Assembly (NCBI GenBank): GCA_017539045.1 | Contig: JAFYHS010000009.1 | Location: 40,578-104,577 of the forward strand | From: Bacteroidales bacterium | GTDB taxonomy: Bacteria; Bacteroidota; Bacteroidia; Bacteroidales; F082 | Reading direction: 5' to 3' | DNA: 64,000 bases | In this document: piece by piece, positions 13,822 through 20,879 of the stretch | Position numbering within the stretch: position 1 is the first letter of the stretch | How the letters are laid out: each line of letters starts with the position of its first letter | Notes under the pieces: generated by a model | Told to the model about the DNA's origin: nothing | The model's database searches: none | What the model saw: the letters and a program-made list of their open reading frames with translations, nothing else | Translations under genes and position numbers: made by a program

Positions 13822-14382
13822 ATGAAAAACATCACTTATACCCGTACGGGCGACGAAGGCAAGACCTCGTTGATAGGGGGCTTGCGCGTCGCGAAATTTG
13901 ACGACAGGGTAGAGGCTTATGGCACTGTCGACGAGCTGAGTGCCTTCATCGGGGTGCTTTACGACCAGGAAGGCGTCACCGCCGAGATGAAGACCGTGTT
14001 GGACACCGTTCAGAACAAGTTGTTCACCATTGAGTCGCACTTCGCCTTGGACGAGAACTCCGAGGTCAAGAAAATGATCCCTGTGTTAGCTCCTGATGAT
14101 GTGGCCTACTTGGAGCACGAAATCGACGTGATGAACGAGCAGCTGCCCGAGTTGAGGAGCTTTGTCATTCCGGGTGGCAATCTCAAGGCGAGTCATGCGC
14201 ATGTATGTCGTACGGTATGCCGTCGGGCCGAGCGTCAGGGATGGCGTTTGGCTGCTCAACATCCCGTCGATTCACTCGATTTGAAATACCTGAATCGCTT
14301 GTCGGATTACTTCTTTGTATTGGCAAGATTATTTGGTTTTTTAGACAAAGTTAACGAAAACAACTGGGAATCAAATAAATAA
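13822..14382 (+). CDS. ATP:cob(I)alamin adenosyltransferase, PduO type
   Basis: 186-residue cytoplasmic enzyme transferring the adenosyl group of ATP to cob(I)alamin, giving adenosylcobalamin for B12-dependent mutases. Motifs: YTRTGDEGKTSLIGGLRV at the N-terminus (ATP site), VEAYGTVDELSAFIG, then SHAHVCRTVCRRAER and LKYLNRLSDYFFVLAR near the C-terminus, all standard for the PduO/EutT-like trimeric fold. Full family length. Five bases separate it from the preceding methyltransferase-like gene. Confidence 0.93.
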   Translation: MKNITYTRTGDEGKTSLIGGLRVAKFDDRVEAYGTVDELSAFIGVLYDQEGVTAEMKTVLDTVQNKLFTIESHFALDENSEVKKMIPVLAPDDVAYLEHEIDVMNEQLPELRSFVIPGGNLKASHAHVCRTVCRRAERQGWRLAAQHPVDSLDLKYLNRLSDYFFVLARLFGFLDKVNENNWESNK

Positions 14383-15327: not shown

Positions 15328-15396
15328 AATAATCTCACTACAATTGGTTTTATTGCGTTTTTTTAGAAAAGATTAGGGCTTGTATGCGTTTTTCCT

Positions 15397-15405
15397 TATC
15401 TTTGC
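15397..15405 (+). promoter_or_regulatory. -7 element of the hypB-flavoprotein-hypA-DUF5692 operon
   Basis: TATCTTTGC matches TAnnTTTGC and lies 24 bases before ATG 15429. No other -7 match was noticed between the five genes, which supports one transcript. Confidence 0.65.
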
Positions 15406-15428
15406 AAAAATATATAAACCAAATTTTT

Positions 15429-16103
15429 ATGGACGAAGTTAGAGTTATCGAGATCAAGAAAAGTGTCTTCGAAGATAACGATAAGGATGCCAATGCTTTA
15501 CGTAATGAACTGAAAGCGAAAGGTGTATTCCTTCTTAACTTGATGTCGGCCCCAGGAAGTGGGAAGACGACGACCCTTATACAAACTCTCAATCGCATCA
15601 AGGAGAAGGTGCGTGTGGCAGTGATGGAAGCCGACATCGACAGCGACGTGGATGCCGTCAAGATTGTGGAAGCCACAGGTGTCCCGTCCATCCAGCTCCA
15701 TACAGGCGGCATGTGCCACCTCGATGCGGAGATGACTCGTCAGGGTCTCAACAACGTGGCCTTGAAAGATGTGGATCTGGTCGTTCTCGAAAACGTGGGC
15801 AATCTGGTATGCCCCGCCGAATTTGACACAGGAGCAGTCCGCAATGCGATGATTCTCTCCGTGCCGGAAGGCGACGACAAACCGCTGAAATATCCTTTGA
15901 TGTTCACGGTTTGTGACCTCGTTCTGATTAACAAGATGGATGTCATGCCGTACTTCGATTTTGACCTCGAACGCTGCAAATCTTACATCCACCAGCGTAA
16001 TCCCAAAGCACAAGTCATCCCCATCTGCGCCAAGACAGGGGAGGGCGTGGATGCCTTCGTCCAATGGCTCCTCACCGAGGTCAACGCCTGGAAAAACAAC
16101 TGA
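15429..16103 (+). CDS. hypB: HypB nickel-incorporation GTPase
   Basis: GTPase of the SIMIBI class that, with HypA, delivers Ni to NiFe enzymes. From ATG 15429 it has 224 residues. The P-loop is MSAPGSGKTTTLIQTL, with switch motif EADIDSD, the Ni-site GGMCHLDAEM, ENVGNLVCPAEFD and the guanine-specificity motif INKMDV. It lacks the N-terminal CxxCGC and His-rich stretches of some HypBs, so it is the minimal form. An upstream in-frame ATG at 15384 precedes the promoter and is rejected. It is the first gene of a five-gene operon that also carries hypA but no hydrogenase subunit. Confidence 0.95.
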   Translation: MDEVRVIEIKKSVFEDNDKDANALRNELKAKGVFLLNLMSAPGSGKTTTLIQTLNRIKEKVRVAVMEADIDSDVDAVKIVEATGVPSIQLHTGGMCHLDAEMTRQGLNNVALKDVDLVVLENVGNLVCPAEFDTGAVRNAMILSVPEGDDKPLKYPLMFTVCDLVLINKMDVMPYFDFDLERCKSYIHQRNPKAQVIPICAKTGEGVDAFVQWLLTEVNAWKNN

Positions 16104-16146
16104 TAACTGAACAACTCCAAACTGACAACTCCAAACTGATAATATT
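16104..16146 (+). repeat. AACTGA-type leader repeat before the flavoprotein gene
   Basis: Imperfect tandem copies of AACTGAACAACTCCA / AACTGACAACTCCA fill the gap between hypB and the flavoprotein gene, as before nfuA and rbfA. Confidence 0.65.
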
Positions 16147-18972
16147 ATGCCCGAAATGTCAACCAAATTTGTCCCCAAGCATAAAGGAGACAAAAACCCC
16201 AACCCGAAACTGCTGAAGTTTGTTCAAAAGGTCACCGACCGCATCCCTGGTAAGATCAAGATGACCAGCGATGCCCCAGAGTATTGGGGCTTGGCGTGTA
16301 TCTTTGAAGATGAGATGGATGCCACCACCCGCGAGGCTTCGCTCGACCTACTGTTGGATATGCTGCCTGGTAAACCTTTGAAGGTGCGTGAACACCGTAC
16401 CTACCAGCTGCTCCATGAATGGAACGCTAAGAAACACTACACTCCCGACGACGCTTCTTTCGACGAGCTGCTCGACAAACTGTCCTATTTTGGGATGCTG
16501 GAGTACGACTATGGCGACAAATACACCAAGGAAGGCCCCGTGGCAGGAACCACCTACAACCGCGAAGACCGTATCTACTGGGTGCCGATGTTCGTCCCAG
16601 GTTCGGCTGAATATACCAACATGAATACAGACCTGATGGACCGCCATCCCGAGCTGGCCATGTTTTTCGAACGAATGACGTTCTTGCCCTTGGAGAAGAT
16701 CACGCCTAGCATCCCCATGGGTGGCGCAGGCATCGGCATGCATGTCATCCCTGTGGAGAAGGCCATCAATATGGAAAACCAAAGTGTTGATATCGAGCAT
16801 ATTTCCTATTGGTTGAAGCGCTATGAAGGCCATCTGGCAGTGGGCATTTGCTCTTGCCGCTATGGCCGAAAGAAACTTGACGAGGGCTGCGCCGACGATT
16901 ACCGTGACTGGTGCATCGGCGTGGGCGACATGGCCGAATACCTTGCCGAGACGGGTCGTGGACACTTCATCACCTACGATGAGGCTATGGCGATCCTGAA
17001 AAAGGCCGAGGACAATGGCTTTGTGCATCAAATAACCAACGTCGACGGCGAAGGCAAGATTTTCGCTATATGCAATTGCAATGTCAAGATCTGTAATGCA
17101 TTGCGCACCTCACAGTTGTTCAATACACCTAACATGTCGAGAAGCGCTTACGTGGCCAAGGTTGACCCGAAGAACTGTGTGGCCTGTGGGCGTTGCGTGG
17201 AATACTGCCCCGCTGGCGCTGTCAGGCTGGGACAGAAGCTCTGTACCAAACATGGCGAACAAACCTATCCCAAACAGGAGCTTCCCGATGCCAAGAAATG
17301 GGGTCCGCATAAATGGACGGAAGACTACCGCGACAAGAACCGCATCAACTGCTATCCGACGGGTACCGCACCCTGTAAGACAGCCTGCCCAGCCCACATC
17401 GCCGTGCAAGGTTATCTGAAGAAAGCTGCTGAAGGCAAGTATAAGGAAGCCTTGGAACTCATCAAGCGCGAGAACCCCTTCCCAGCGGTCTGTGGTCGCG
17501 TGTGCAACCGTCGTTGCGAGGATGCCTGCACCCGTGGCACCATCGATCAGCCCATTGCCATCGATGCCGTCAAGAAATTCATCGCTGAGCAGGATCTCAA
17601 TGCCGACACGCGCTTTGTGCCCGAGATCAATATCGCGTCGAGCGTCATTGAGCGTTGGGACGAGAAGATCGCTGTCATCGGTGGTGGCCCTGCCGGTTTG
17701 AGTTGTGCTTATTATCTCGCCACGATGGGCTATTATCCCACAGTGTTCGAGAAGAATGATATTCCAGGAGGCATGTTGCAATACGGCATCCCTTCCTATA
17801 AACTTGACAAAGAGGTGATCAAGGCTGAAATCGACATCATGCGCGAGATTGGCGTTGACATCAAGACAGGCGTGGAAGTCGGCAAAGACATTACCATCCA
17901 ACAGCTGCGCGAGCAAGGCTATAAAGGCTTCTATGTGGCCATCGGTTGTCAAGGTGGCAAGCTGCCTGGCATCCCTGGTGAGACCATGTCGGGTACAACC
18001 ACGGCTATCGATTTCCTCCATCAAGCCAACTGCGGCCAGGTGAAGGTGGGTGGCAAAGTGGTCGTCGTCGGCGGTGGCAATGTGGCCATCGACGCAGCTC
18101 GTGTGGCCAAGTGCAGTGGTGCCGAAACGGTGACGATGCTCTCGCTGGAGACGGAAGACATCATGCCCGCCTCACTCGAGGAACGCCGCGAAGCCCGCGA
18201 AGACGGTGTGGTGATCAATCCTGGTTGGGGACCGAAAGAAGTGCTCGGCGAAGGCAAGGTCAGCGGCATCGTATTCAAGAAATGCACCTCGGTGTACGAC
18301 AACGAGCATCGTTTTGCACCTCAATATGATGAGAACGAACTTATTACCTTGGACGCCGATATGGTCATCTTCGCCATCGGTCAGACGGTCATTTTGAAGG
18401 ACCTGCTGAAAGACACCAAGGTGGAGTTCTTCCGTGGTGTGTATCCCGTGGCCGACAAGTTGACCTATCAGACCGCCGAAGCCGACATTTTTGTGGGTGG
18501 CGACTGCTATACCGGTCCTAAATTCGCCATCGATGCCATCGCAGCTGGTAAGGAAGCCGCTGAGAGTCTGCACCGCTATGTGCAGCACGGACACATGACC
18601 ATCGGACGCAACCGCCGCGACTTCATCGAACTCGACAAAGACGATATCATGGTGGAGTCGTACGACAATGGCTCGCGTCAGGTGGAAGGCGTGGCTGCCA
18701 AGGAGAATCCCTTCGGTGAATATATGGTGACCCTCAGCGAAGAACAGGTGCGTAAGGAGACTGCCCGTTGCTTGAGCTGTGGTGCTTCCGTCGTCGACGA
18801 GAACCGCTGCATCGGCTGTGGCATCTGTACTACCAAGTGCGGTTTCGATGCTATCCATCTCTATCGCGACCACCCAGAGGCTTCCCACATGGTCACCTCT
18901 GAGGACAAGTTCAGAGCCATTCTACCTTATATGCTCAAACGTACTGGTAAAATCATCTTTGGCAAAAAGTAA
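16147..18972 (+). CDS. Multi-[Fe-S] FAD/NAD(P)-dependent oxidoreductase (GltD-like core)
   Basis: 941-residue soluble redox protein. The N-terminal domain (about 1-330) is found fused to ferredoxins in anaerobes and carries Cys-rich CSCRYGRKKLDEGC...WC (C235, C237, C248, C256) and CNCNVKIC (C309, C311, C316). Next come a ferredoxin motif NCVACGRCVEYCPAGAV (C344-C354) and the GltD-type Fe-S region CYPTGTAPCKTACPAHI ... CGRVCNRRCEDACTRG (402-461). The FAD site is AVIGGGPAGLSCAYYLA (about 509) and the NAD(P) site VVVVGGGNVAIDAAR (about 637), with GGDCYTGPKFAIDAIAAGKEAA closing the FAD site. A C-terminal ferredoxin is CIGCGICTTKCGFDAI. It likely moves electrons between NAD(P)H and a ferredoxin-like or membrane partner. 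Flanked by hypB and hypA. ATG 16147 or 16156 may start it. Confidence 0.88.
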   Translation: MPEMSTKFVPKHKGDKNPNPKLLKFVQKVTDRIPGKIKMTSDAPEYWGLACIFEDEMDATTREASLDLLLDMLPGKPLKVREHRTYQLLHEWNAKKHYTPDDASFDELLDKLSYFGMLEYDYGDKYTKEGPVAGTTYNREDRIYWVPMFVPGSAEYTNMNTDLMDRHPELAMFFERMTFLPLEKITPSIPMGGAGIGMHVIPVEKAINMENQSVDIEHISYWLKRYEGHLAVGICSCRYGRKKLDEGCADDYRDWCIGVGDMAEYLAETGRGHFITYDEAMAILKKAEDNGFVHQITNVDGEGKIFAICNCNVKICNALRTSQLFNTPNMSRSAYVAKVDPKNCVACGRCVEYCPAGAVRLGQKLCTKHGEQTYPKQELPDAKKWGPHKWTEDYRDKNRINCYPTGTAPCKTACPAHIAVQGYLKKAAEGKYKEALELIKRENPFPAVCGRVCNRRCEDACTRGTIDQPIAIDAVKKFIAEQDLNADTRFVPEINIASSVIERWDEKIAVIGGGPAGLSCAYYLATMGYYPTVFEKNDIPGGMLQYGIPSYKLDKEVIKAEIDIMREIGVDIKTGVEVGKDITIQQLREQGYKGFYVAIGCQGGKLPGIPGETMSGTTTAIDFLHQANCGQVKVGGKVVVVGGGNVAIDAARVAKCSGAETVTMLSLETEDIMPASLEERREAREDGVVINPGWGPKEVLGEGKVSGIVFKKCTSVYDNEHRFAPQYDENELITLDADMVIFAIGQTVILKDLLKDTKVEFFRGVYPVADKLTYQTAEADIFVGGDCYTGPKFAIDAIAAGKEAAESLHRYVQHGHMTIGRNRRDFIELDKDDIMVESYDNGSRQVEGVAAKENPFGEYMVTLSEEQVRKETARCLSCGASVVDENRCIGCGICTTKCGFDAIHLYRDHPEASHMVTSEDKFRAILPYMLKRTGKIIFGKK

Positions 18973-18981
18973 TCTATTGTC

Positions 18982-19323
18982 ATGCACGAACTGGGAATCG
19001 TATTCTATATCGTCAAGGACGTCAAGCAGGTGGCCGAAGAAAACCATGTGGAGCATGTCTCCAGCGTGGTGATGGACATCGGTGAGGTGTCGACCGTGGT
19101 GCCGCATCTGCTCACCGATTGTTGGCGCTGGGCTGCCGATAAGGAAGACCTCCTTTGGGGTTGTGAGATGAAAGTCAACACCATCCCTGCGGTTACGCTT
19201 TGTGGCGACTGTAACAAGGAATACAAAACGGTCAAGTTTGGCAAGACATGTCCCTATTGTAACAGCAAAAACACCTGGCTGTTGCAGGGCAATGAAGTGG
19301 AAATCAATAGTATCATTGTTTAG
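18982..19323 (+). CDS. hypA: HypA nickel metallochaperone
   Basis: 113-residue Ni/Zn protein partnering HypB. It starts MHELGIV, with the Ni-binding M-H-E terminus (H2, E3), and has a zinc site CGDC...CPYC (C74, C77, C90, C93). Length and order match HypA/HybF. Nine bases separate it from the flavoprotein stop. The inserted residues WGCEMKVNTIPAVTLC follow the family fold. Confidence 0.94.
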   Translation: MHELGIVFYIVKDVKQVAEENHVEHVSSVVMDIGEVSTVVPHLLTDCWRWAADKEDLLWGCEMKVNTIPAVTLCGDCNKEYKTVKFGKTCPYCNSKNTWLLQGNEVEINSIIV

Positions 19324-19349
19324 TATTTAATCATAAAATCTTAATAATC

Positions 19350-19706
19350 ATGTCGTGTTTTATCGTCCCTTTAACGCAAGCCATCGCTACTAGCGCTTAC
19401 CGCAAAACGCATAAGAATACCATCGAAAGCGCTGAAGCATCGGTGCTCAAACGCAACCTGCCCGCTTTGGAAAAGATGCTTTGGGGTGGCTCGGTGATGC
19501 TCGTCGTGGATCATATTATCAACGGAGAGGTCACATGGCGCTATCCTTTCTTTACCGCTTTGGAAGAAGCGGGAGGCCTTCAGGTAATGCTCCATGAGAT
19601 GCTTACTGTAGGCCTGCCCATGTCAATCGTTCTGACGGCAGTGTGGGTGGGCTATGCCATCCTGAAAGAGCGCAAGAATAGAATTACTGTAACAAATGTT
19701 AAATAA
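19350..19706 (+). CDS. Small membrane protein of the hypA-DUF5692 operon
   Basis: 118 residues, not recognised. Two hydrophobic segments are evident, MLWGGSVMLVVDHII (about 44-58) and MLTVGLPMSIVLTAVWVGYAIL (about 85-106), with a basic tail KERKNR. A polar N-terminal part contains a conserved-looking TSAYRKTHKNT. The position between hypA and the DUF5692 gene, with gaps of 26 and 17 bases, suggests it is a small subunit of that membrane protein. Confidence 0.7.
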   Translation: MSCFIVPLTQAIATSAYRKTHKNTIESAEASVLKRNLPALEKMLWGGSVMLVVDHIINGEVTWRYPFFTALEEAGGLQVMLHEMLTVGLPMSIVLTAVWVGYAILKERKNRITVTNVK

Positions 19707-19723
19707 TTAAAAATCATTGCACT

Positions 19724-20827
19724 ATGTTTTTCCAAGTGTATGGGGCTAATGCCCTGTCTCAGTGGGGAATGATGCTCGTTGTCCTCGCTGGTCTTATCTT
19801 ACTGAACGAGTTTGCCCGTCGCACCAAGTTCGGCGGTATCTTTACTTTCTTGGTCGTTCCCGTTGCTTTGACGGCTTACTTCCTTGCCATCTGGCTTGGA
19901 GTCCGCAGCGGAGCACAGTGGGCGTTGGAAAACCAGACCCATGTCTATATGCAAGGCTGGTTCCATTATGCCAAGCTTTATGCAGCCACGGCTGGGTGTA
20001 TCGGCTTTATGATGATCAAATACAAATGGGGCATCGGCGCCAAGCACTGGTTCAAGCCTTTCCCATTCATCATCGTGGCTATCAACATCCTGATTGCCTG
20101 CGTCTCTGACTTCGAGAGCGCTGTGATGGGATGGAACAAGTGGTGGCTTACCTCCGAAGGCGTTTGGCAATACGGTGGTTGGCACAATGTCTTTAATGGT
20201 GTTGCCGGTTTGTTCAACATCTTCTGTATGACCGCTTGGTGGAATGTGTATGGTTCCAAGGACAAGAAAGACATGATTTGGGCCGACATGACCTGGGTCT
20301 ACATCGTCATCTATGACATTTGGAACTTTGCCTACACATACAACTGCCTGCCGACGCACAGCTGGTACTGCGGTATCGCCCTGTTGCTGGCTCCTACGGT
20401 GGCTGCTCTGCTGTGGAACCGTGGTGGCTGGATCCAGAACCGTGCCAACACCTTGGCCATCTGGTGCATGTTCGCACAGGTGTTCCCGCTCTTCCAGGAG
20501 ACCTTCAAAGACGGTCGTCAATGGTTCAGCTGGGCTACACTTCCTGTTCTCTATCCTGAAGGTGTCACCACCATTGAGAAGCTGTACGCTGCAGGCGGAC
20601 AGGCGGCCGTTGACGGCATTGTGGGCACTACCGTAGATCCTTCCGTCGTAGCGGCCAATCCTACCATGATGATGGTGATCAGCACACTCGCTCTGATAGT
20701 GAACATCGTTGCACTTTGCTACATCATCTCGGTTTCCAAGAAACGTCACATCAACCCGTACAAGGAAGACGTCTTCGTCAACCAGAAGTACTACAAAGAC
20801 GCCATGGCTCGTGCCGATGTCGATTGA
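19724..20827 (+). CDS. DUF5692-family polytopic membrane protein
   Basis: 367 residues with about eight or nine hydrophobic segments, beginning WGMMLVVLAGLILLNEFARR. Trp- and aromatic-rich loops (CVSDFESAVMGWNKWW, WHNVFNGVAGLFN, WADMTWVYIVIYDIWNFAYTYN) match what I know as DUF5692, a family without assigned function. It carries conserved acidic and aromatic residues inside the membrane that could serve ion or cofactor transfer; this is inference. It is the last gene of the operon and is followed by a strong terminator. Confidence 0.75.
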   Translation: MFFQVYGANALSQWGMMLVVLAGLILLNEFARRTKFGGIFTFLVVPVALTAYFLAIWLGVRSGAQWALENQTHVYMQGWFHYAKLYAATAGCIGFMMIKYKWGIGAKHWFKPFPFIIVAINILIACVSDFESAVMGWNKWWLTSEGVWQYGGWHNVFNGVAGLFNIFCMTAWWNVYGSKDKKDMIWADMTWVYIVIYDIWNFAYTYNCLPTHSWYCGIALLLAPTVAALLWNRGGWIQNRANTLAIWCMFAQVFPLFQETFKDGRQWFSWATLPVLYPEGVTTIEKLYAAGGQAAVDGIVGTTVDPSVVAANPTMMMVISTLALIVNIVALCYIISVSKKRHINPYKEDVFVNQKYYKDAMARADVD

Positions 20828-20850
20828 TGTTGCAACCTATTTAAAGCATA

Positions 20851-20879
20851 AAAGTCCGCAGACAACTGCGGACTTTTTT
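20851..20879 (+). terminator. Intrinsic terminator closing the hyp/DUF5692 operon
   Basis: Perfect 11-bp stem AAAGTCCGCAG / CTGCGGACTTT around ACAA, followed by Ts. Confidence 0.9.

Follow-up and report, generated by a model that had tools for sequence, protein, structure and literature searches.

The closest described counterpart of the operon reported here is the isr operon of Acetobacterium wieringae, in which the gene for IsrA, a putative isoprene reductase, is accompanied by two hypA genes, hypB and a ferredoxin gene; the genome is described as lacking hypCDEF and NiFe hydrogenase (Kronen 2023; PMC10134865). According to the text of that paper, four of the five isr proteins were strongly induced by isoprene in A. 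wieringae, and the neighbours of 988 IsrA homologues included HypA (0.73), HypB (0.56), DUF5692 (0.40) and TetR (0.21). For the Cys6 site of IsrA, the paper predicts no more than an Fe/S site and leaves open whether nickel is present there. Proteomics of strain Y are reported to point to the same oxidoreductase as the candidate (PMC9765523), and the butadiene reducer strain N is reported also to carry an isr cluster (PMC12509576). As presented in these three papers, the IsrA-type members with physiological evidence are those of isoprene- or butadiene-reducing acetogens. Enzymes of the IsrA type are candidates for a class that adds hydrogen to unfunctionalised double bonds.

Here we describe a related operon from a Bacteroidales genome. 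Judged against the published descriptions of A. wieringae ISORED-2, Y and N, it shares with the isr operon a flavoprotein with an NAD(P)H/FAD domain, Fe-S motifs and an equally spaced CxC...CxC site, as well as HypA and HypB within the operon and the lack of a NiFe hydrogenase (the latter stated by the authors for ISORED-2). The isr operon has a separate 4Fe-4S ferredoxin and two hypA genes, whereas the operon here has neither a ferredoxin gene nor a second hypA; it also differs in placing hypB first, in the addition of DUF5692 and a small protein, and in the apparent lack of the insertion of isoprene reducers. Its gene content is the same as that given in PMC10134865 for the clade 9 homologues with hypA, hypB and DUF5692 neighbours, and the operon appears to be of that kind. 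The first-pass annotation of this DNA had regarded the layout as one for which no role was described; this did not hold, as PMC10134865 finds HypA, HypB and DUF5692 repeatedly in the neighbourhood of IsrA homologues, so that the layout, though not the biochemistry, is already described in what that paper reports.

Organisation and boundaries of the operon

The operon is situated in a 64,000-nt stretch of DNA (hereafter the window; positions 40,578-104,577 of contig JAFYHS010000009.1) from the Bacteroidales bacterium MAG GCA_017539045.1, a Bacteroidota genome of 2.36 Mb in 43 contigs that is 81% complete and whose phylum was read from its relatives. Its features, in window coordinates, are as follows.

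15397..15404, + strand: candidate Bacteroidota -7 element TATCTTTG (single pattern match)
15429..16103, + strand: hypB, nickel GTPase metallochaperone (TIGR00073; P-loop, C96-H, C128)
16147..18972, + strand: isrA-like flavoprotein, 941 aa (Pyr_redox_2, Fer4_20 and Fer4; architecture compared with PMC10134865)
16849..17094, + strand: N-terminal cysteine site C235-x-C237, C248, C256, C309-x-C311, C316 (invariant cysteines; proposed nickel/Fe-S catalytic site)
17176..17208, + strand: first ferredoxin-type [4Fe-4S] motif, C344-C347-C350-C354 (Pfam search, alignment)
17350..17601, + strand: dihydropyrimidine dehydrogenase domain II Fe-S region, residues 402-485 (PF14691)
17665..18549, + strand: FAD/NAD(P)H domain, residues 507-801 (PF07992)
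18808..18840, + strand: C-terminal ferredoxin-type motif, C888-C891-C894-C898 (Pfam search, alignment)
18982..19323, + strand: hypA, nickel metallochaperone (PF01155; MHE nickel site, two CxxC zinc motifs)
19350..19706, + strand: small membrane-type protein, 118 aa (ORF; no family match)
19724..20827, + strand: DUF5692 polytopic membrane protein, 367 aa (PF18948)
20850..20877, + strand: intrinsic terminator with a 12-pair stem (hairpin search)

The ORF list gave five co-directional genes (15429-20827, + strand) separated by 43, 9, 26 and 17 bases; coordinates and family searches agreed with the five-gene operon of 9-43 base gaps that had been annotated, in both order and strand. A longer hypB ORF, with its start at 15384, is also possible. 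The bounds of the operon, which had been described as clean, stood less firmly: the -7 match at 15397 and the 12-pair hairpin both exist and together delimit the operon, but each is weak evidence singly when judged against shuffled sequence. The -7 pattern TANNTTTG had 46 matches in the window versus 29.6 expected (none of 100 shuffles had as many), one of them within isrA itself, and the lone TATCTTTG match is weak promoter evidence because the pattern is this frequent. Terminator-like sites in the operon region numbered three, against 5.2 in shuffles, leaving stem length as the sole distinctive trait of the terminator. An ORF at 13822-14382 of the window, close upstream of the operon and apparently separate from it, resembles what we take to be a PduO-type cobalamin adenosyltransferase.

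The flavoprotein is of the IsrA type

Pfam domains and structure matches confirmed the annotated 941-residue flavoprotein with ferredoxin and GltD-type Fe-S motifs. In common with the IsrA type it has a length of about 900 residues, PF07992 and PF14691 domains, two ferredoxin motifs, and an N-terminal site with two CxC motifs, which in IsrA lie within a six-cysteine environment; hypA and hypB, which are usual rather than required neighbours of clade 9 isrA genes, are also present in the operon. The cysteines C235, C237, C248, C256, C309, C311 and C316 were invariant in an alignment of 71 full-length homologues (71/71), and the 74 residues from the C235/C237 pair to the C309/C311 pair equal the distance from Cys180/182 to Cys254/256 in IsrA.

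Solved structures that matched residues of about 345-880 included those of Nfn (NfnA/NfnB), the glutamate synthase small chain and dihydropyrimidine dehydrogenase. NfnB, GltD and dihydropyrimidine dehydrogenase (5jca, 2vdc and 1h7w) share only the FAD/NAD(P)H and Fe-S module (residues of about 390-815) with the flavoprotein, and not residues 1-340; we know of no nickel chaperones belonging to these three systems. Residues 1-340, which contain the cysteine site, had no match among the solved structures searched, and structure prediction for the N-terminal part yielded no informative fold.

In a comparison of cysteine spacing with the published IsrA positions, which relies on the start convention of PS51379, the offset between the two proteins was 55 at C344 and about 31 at C888, amounting to some 24 residues fewer in between. 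From this spacing, the 26-residue insertion of isoprene reducers (IsrA 756-782) appears to be absent from the flavoprotein, which would make isoprene an unlikely substrate. With IsrA compared by its published description, we therefore place the flavoprotein as an IsrA-type homologue rather than an isoprene reductase.

Distribution of carriers

A contig scan for DUF5692 confirmed at least 588 relatives, and loci were analysed for the best 80 of these. Rumen or ruminant labels were carried by 67 of the best 80 of at least 588 DUF5692 loci, the titles of the other 13 being host-free, and all 80 were named Bacteroidales, Bacteroidia or Bacteroidetes; 'RUG' in record titles presumably stands for rumen uncultured genome. 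The same gene order was also found in a different phylum, on a Subdoligranulum plasmid encoding hypB-isrA-hypA-DUF5692 (70, 61, 50 and 55% protein identity, respectively) without the small protein.

In a family sample of 173 genomes, including that of the window and with 99 belonging to the same genus (counted from sample order), DUF5692 was present in 32, of which 29 were of the same genus and three of other genera. IsrA, at E <= 1e-100, was found in 26 of the 173, all of them same-genus and DUF5692-positive, and the three other-genus genomes with DUF5692 had no IsrA. Across a phylum-wide sample (n = 395), the genome of the window was alone in having DUF5692 over the cut-off, with one further match below it, and alone in having IsrA at E <= 1e-100, few candidates having been scored per genome.

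Ruminant carriers are newly noted here for this kind of operon. The terms rumen, gut and linole- have no occurrences in the main text of PMC10134865, and rumen carriers, the small protein and the glpABC neighbours described below are not among the features found in its account of clade 9. Among the literature matches listed, in which subscription journals are thinly covered, there were no reports of such operons in rumen bacteria.

HypA, HypB and the search for other nickel clients

The annotation of HypA and HypB as complete was borne out. The hypB product scored 238.5 bits against TIGR00073 (NCBIfam cut-off 121.2) and is of the type without an N-terminal metal-binding stretch, retaining the P-loop, Cys96-His and Cys128. 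The hypA product scored 102.3 bits against PF01155 (Pfam cut-off 28.9) and retains the MHE and two CxxC motifs. With these metal and GTPase motifs intact, both proteins look functional. Under the stricter TIGR00100 cut-off HypA falls short (67.6 versus 88.1 bits), indicating divergence from hydrogenase HypA. NiFe-hydrogenase maturation shares the HypA and HypB families and their metal motifs with this operon, but HypD and the hydrogenase large subunit were not found here. It had been claimed that the window contains neither a NiFe hydrogenase subunit nor hypC/D/E/F; the lack of a hydrogenase extends to the 81%-complete genome from which the window derives, in which HypD and the NiFe large subunit were not found and which has one HypA match in total.

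HypD was found in none of the same-genus genomes of the family sample, the 66 positives among 173 all being of other genera. None of the 26 IsrA-positive genomes, that of the window included, had a NiFe large subunit (PF00374), compared with 5 of 14 controls, and urease and LarA were each found in none of the 26 and in some of the 14 controls. In nine of the 26 genomes completeness is 90% or more and contamination 5% or less. HypA scored over the cut-off in 27 same-genus genomes, namely 25 of the 26 IsrA-positive genomes together with G482 and G486; the IsrA-positive genome without HypA over the cut-off, G505, has a partial isrA. Outside the genus, HypA was over the cut-off in 68 of 74 family genomes, most of which are also HypD-positive. 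As the other tested clients were not found, IsrA is the likely client of HypA and HypB.

G482 (L143, 8658-9008) and G486 (L144, 8433-9478) encode a different type of HypA, adjoining genes for ATP synthase, with no IsrA and no HypD found, and in G486 a hypB of its own lies beside the different HypA. These form a second hydrogenase-free Hyp set in the genus, and such a HypA in genomes that have no isrA weighs against the interpretation preferred below.

Linkage and separability of the module

Within the best 80 of at least 588 loci, isrA adjoins DUF5692 in 61. In all 61 of these linked loci (among the best 80 of at least 588), hypA was present as the next gene after isrA, with identical gene order and strand, and the isrA-hypA gap was at most 9 bases in 40 of them by tblastn ends. 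The hypB gene was found in 50 of the 61; in the other 11 the contig breaks off inside isrA or some 110 bases short of it. The small protein was detected in 49 of the 61 linked loci (again among the best 80 of at least 588) and undetected in 12, 11 of which have only 24-46 bases between hypA and DUF5692, whilst three of the 61 have other sequence of 1.8 to 3.7 kb in this position. In two loci, L070 (4744-5511) and L071 (6278-7030), the gene for the small protein is separated from hypA by a related ORF of approximately 250 aa, the start of which is signal-like. In L054 (8152-10955; G508) the isrA homologue is split into two frames, covering residues 1-828 and 835-941, which reflects either a frameshift or an assembly error.

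DUF5692 occurred without the other genes, in varied surroundings, in 19 of the best 80 of at least 588 loci. Ten of those 19 genomes have isrA elsewhere and nine have none detectable; a further three genomes (G522, G477 and G501) have DUF5692 without detectable isrA, the copies of G477 and G501 being at contig edges. In all ten unlinked genomes with isrA, hypA directly follows isrA and hypB is on its other side. HypA was over the cut-off in 10/10 IsrA-positive and 0/12 IsrA-negative genomes with unlinked DUF5692, with one match below the cut-off in G582. Since hypA lies next to isrA, a genome that lacks both shows one event and not two independent ones, and some of these absences may be MAG gaps. 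In a DUF5692 tree of 56 rows, well-supported branches force at least five changes of the no-IsrA label, which is also clustered on the tree (as low in 2 of 500 shuffles); in favour of a passenger role, this suggests that DUF5692 and isrA have come apart repeatedly.

DUF5692 stands by itself, with neither hyp genes nor isrA beside it, for example in L037 (9908-10999; G522), L034 (7959-8888), L035 (3020-3952) and L036 (11730-12665). L034 lies on a Latilactobacillus plasmid, where the 8 kb around DUF5692 have no annotated hyp gene or isrA, and the gene just before DUF5692 in L035 looks carbonic-anhydrase-like.

The first-pass annotation had proposed asking whether these genes co-occur in genomes without hydrogenase and whether relatives consistently separate DUF5692 from hypAB. 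No hydrogenase was found, and DUF5692 is apart sometimes (19 of the best 80 of at least 588 loci) but not consistently.

DUF5692 and the small protein

A DUF5692 membrane protein was correctly annotated as the last of the operon, its PF18948 score being 427.6 bits against a gathering cut-off of 27. Seven members, down to 38-41% identity, have invariant charged residues including E29, R32, D129, D188, D198 and R240, and only one invariant His, leaving no obvious haem or Fe-S ligand set. These conserved charges and the single His fit binding or transport better than electron transfer. The 118-aa small protein had no Pfam or NCBIfam match. It had been called a two-helix protein; the gene is present after hypA, but a Kyte-Doolittle plot gives one strongly hydrophobic segment, of 19 residues, and the label is loose.

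glpABC neighbours in some relatives

In 7 of the 61 linked loci (among the best 80 of at least 588), DUF5692 has glpA, glpB and glpC after it on its own strand (L085, L087, L088, L090, L095, L106 and L126; for example L085 9147-13136 and L087 9312-14760). They begin 52 to about 230 bases downstream of DUF5692, and a glpT-like gene comes next in four loci. One member each of glpA, glpB and glpC scored over the NCBIfam cut-offs for anaerobic glycerol-3-phosphate dehydrogenase subunits, whilst the glpT-like transporter reached 535 bits against a glpT cut-off of 632.6 and passes that of a related subfamily. In a quick IsrA tree, which could take in six of these glp loci, the six fall into two groups. 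The contig ends within 2 kb of DUF5692 in 8 of the 61 linked loci. As glpABC was present in none of the other loci among 122 examined, it is a trait of some relatives and not of the window.

GlpABC is menaquinone-linked in E. coli, and glycerol 3-phosphate arises with lipid breakdown. A lipid or isoprenoid substrate is worth testing, given the glp neighbours, the oleate hydratase that PMC10134865 reports near an IsrA homologue of A. woodii, and the proposal that unclassified Bacteroidales are agents of ruminal biohydrogenation (Huws 2011, as cited in PMC5880937). The operon could conceivably encode a nickel-dependent rumen Bacteroidales biohydrogenase that reduces conjugated double bonds in plant-lipid fatty acids or isoprenoids (e.g. 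phytol-type chains or conjugated linoleic acid), with DUF5692 presenting the lipid and, in some relatives, GlpABC providing a coupling to the oxidation of glycerol 3-phosphate, though we hold this specific version to be distinctly doubtful.

Proposed function and alternatives

Gene content, conserved order, intact metal motifs and the absence of the other tested clients underlie our preferred interpretation, to which we give somewhat better than even credence: the operon makes and matures one IsrA-type (clade 9) nickel-loaded flavo-iron-sulfur reductase of unsaturated carbon bonds, with DUF5692 assisting at the membrane. The domain order shared with IsrA, the equal CxC spacing, the seven invariant cysteines and the reports on isoprene induction and on strains Y and N cited above also speak for it. 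HypB, a GTPase, would hand nickel to HypA, which would insert it into the flavoprotein at the N-terminal site rich in cysteines. The FAD would be reduced by NAD(P)H, and electrons would pass from it by way of [4Fe-4S] clusters, first dihydropyrimidine-dehydrogenase-like and ferredoxin-like in type, to the N-terminal site, where an unsaturated carbon-carbon bond would be reduced. Homology to the putative IsrA is what predicts the direction in which electrons flow, the nickel at the cysteines and the C=C reduction. DUF5692 and the small protein may act as membrane partners, with handling of a hydrophobic substrate or product, or anchoring of the enzyme, likelier than electron carriage.

The annotation had envisaged a self-contained nickel-linked redox module, in which either the chaperones serve the flavoprotein or the flavoprotein passes electrons to a DUF5692 complex. 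The module and the former option are supported, in that no other tested client was found and hypA is next to isrA in 61/61 linked loci (among the best 80 of at least 588) and 10/10 unlinked genomes; the link between isrA and the chaperones is favoured because HypA stays with isrA where DUF5692 lies elsewhere. That HypA and HypB instead serve a nickel enzyme elsewhere, their seat in the operon being incidental, would be very improbable, because searches of the genome itself and of its IsrA-positive relatives gave no HypD, NiFe large subunit, urease or LarA, and 9 of the 26 genomes searched have a completeness of 90% or above and a contamination no higher than 5%; it would draw on the 81% completeness of the genome and on a client search confined to these enzymes. 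A rather unlikely alternative is that the chaperones act on IsrA without catalytic nickel, the N-terminal site being a plain Fe-S site and the metal handled being zinc or a structural or regulatory ion. The prediction of the IsrA Cys6 site only as Fe/S (in the account of PMC10134865) and the HypA score below the strict TIGR00100 cut-off are in line with this, but HypA and HypB retain their nickel-site residues (MHE; CH and C) and hypA is joined to isrA throughout the 61 linked loci (among the best 80 of at least 588).

Electron transfer to DUF5692, the other annotated option, fared poorly, since DUF5692 is separable from isrA, being present in genomes where neither isrA nor hypA is detectable, and since a single His is invariant in it. 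We thus consider it quite unlikely that the flavoprotein is an electron-input module with DUF5692 as a terminal or proton-pumping membrane acceptor, or as a feeder from menaquinol. Linkage to isrA in 61 of the best 80 of at least 588 loci would suit such a role, as would the GlpABC genes that follow in 7 of the 61, six of them in two separate groups on the IsrA tree; against it are the lack of detectable isrA in 9 of the 19 unlinked genomes and in G522, G477 and G501 (some perhaps being MAG gaps), the Latilactobacillus plasmid, whose DUF5692 lacks annotated hyp and isrA genes within 8 kb, the three other-genus family genomes with DUF5692 and no IsrA, and the single invariant His. The same separability could mean that the reductase works whilst DUF5692 and the small protein are unrelated passengers, such as a transporter or sensor using the same promoter, and the five or more forced label changes on the DUF5692 tree and the 12 of 61 linked loci in which the small protein went undetected (11 with 24-46 base hypA-DUF5692 spacing) favour this. 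We nonetheless regard it as unlikely: DUF5692 is beside isrA in 61 of the best 80 of at least 588 loci and present in all 26 IsrA-positive genomes of the family sample, the order recurs in a different phylum on the Subdoligranulum plasmid, and co-occurrence over 988 IsrA homologues is given as 0.40 in PMC10134865.

Implications

Under the preferred interpretation of an IsrA-type reductase matured by its own chaperones, our analysis separates DUF5692 from the nickel step. The ruminant Bacteroidales form, without the other tested clients, offers a clean test of whether HypA and HypB mature an enzyme that is neither a hydrogenase nor a urease. The operon is also an enzyme candidate for rumen biohydrogenation. 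If the biohydrogenase reading were true, it would name both the uncultured agent and the enzyme for ruminal biohydrogenation, and the process carried out by this enzyme would be a hydrogen sink competing with methanogenesis.
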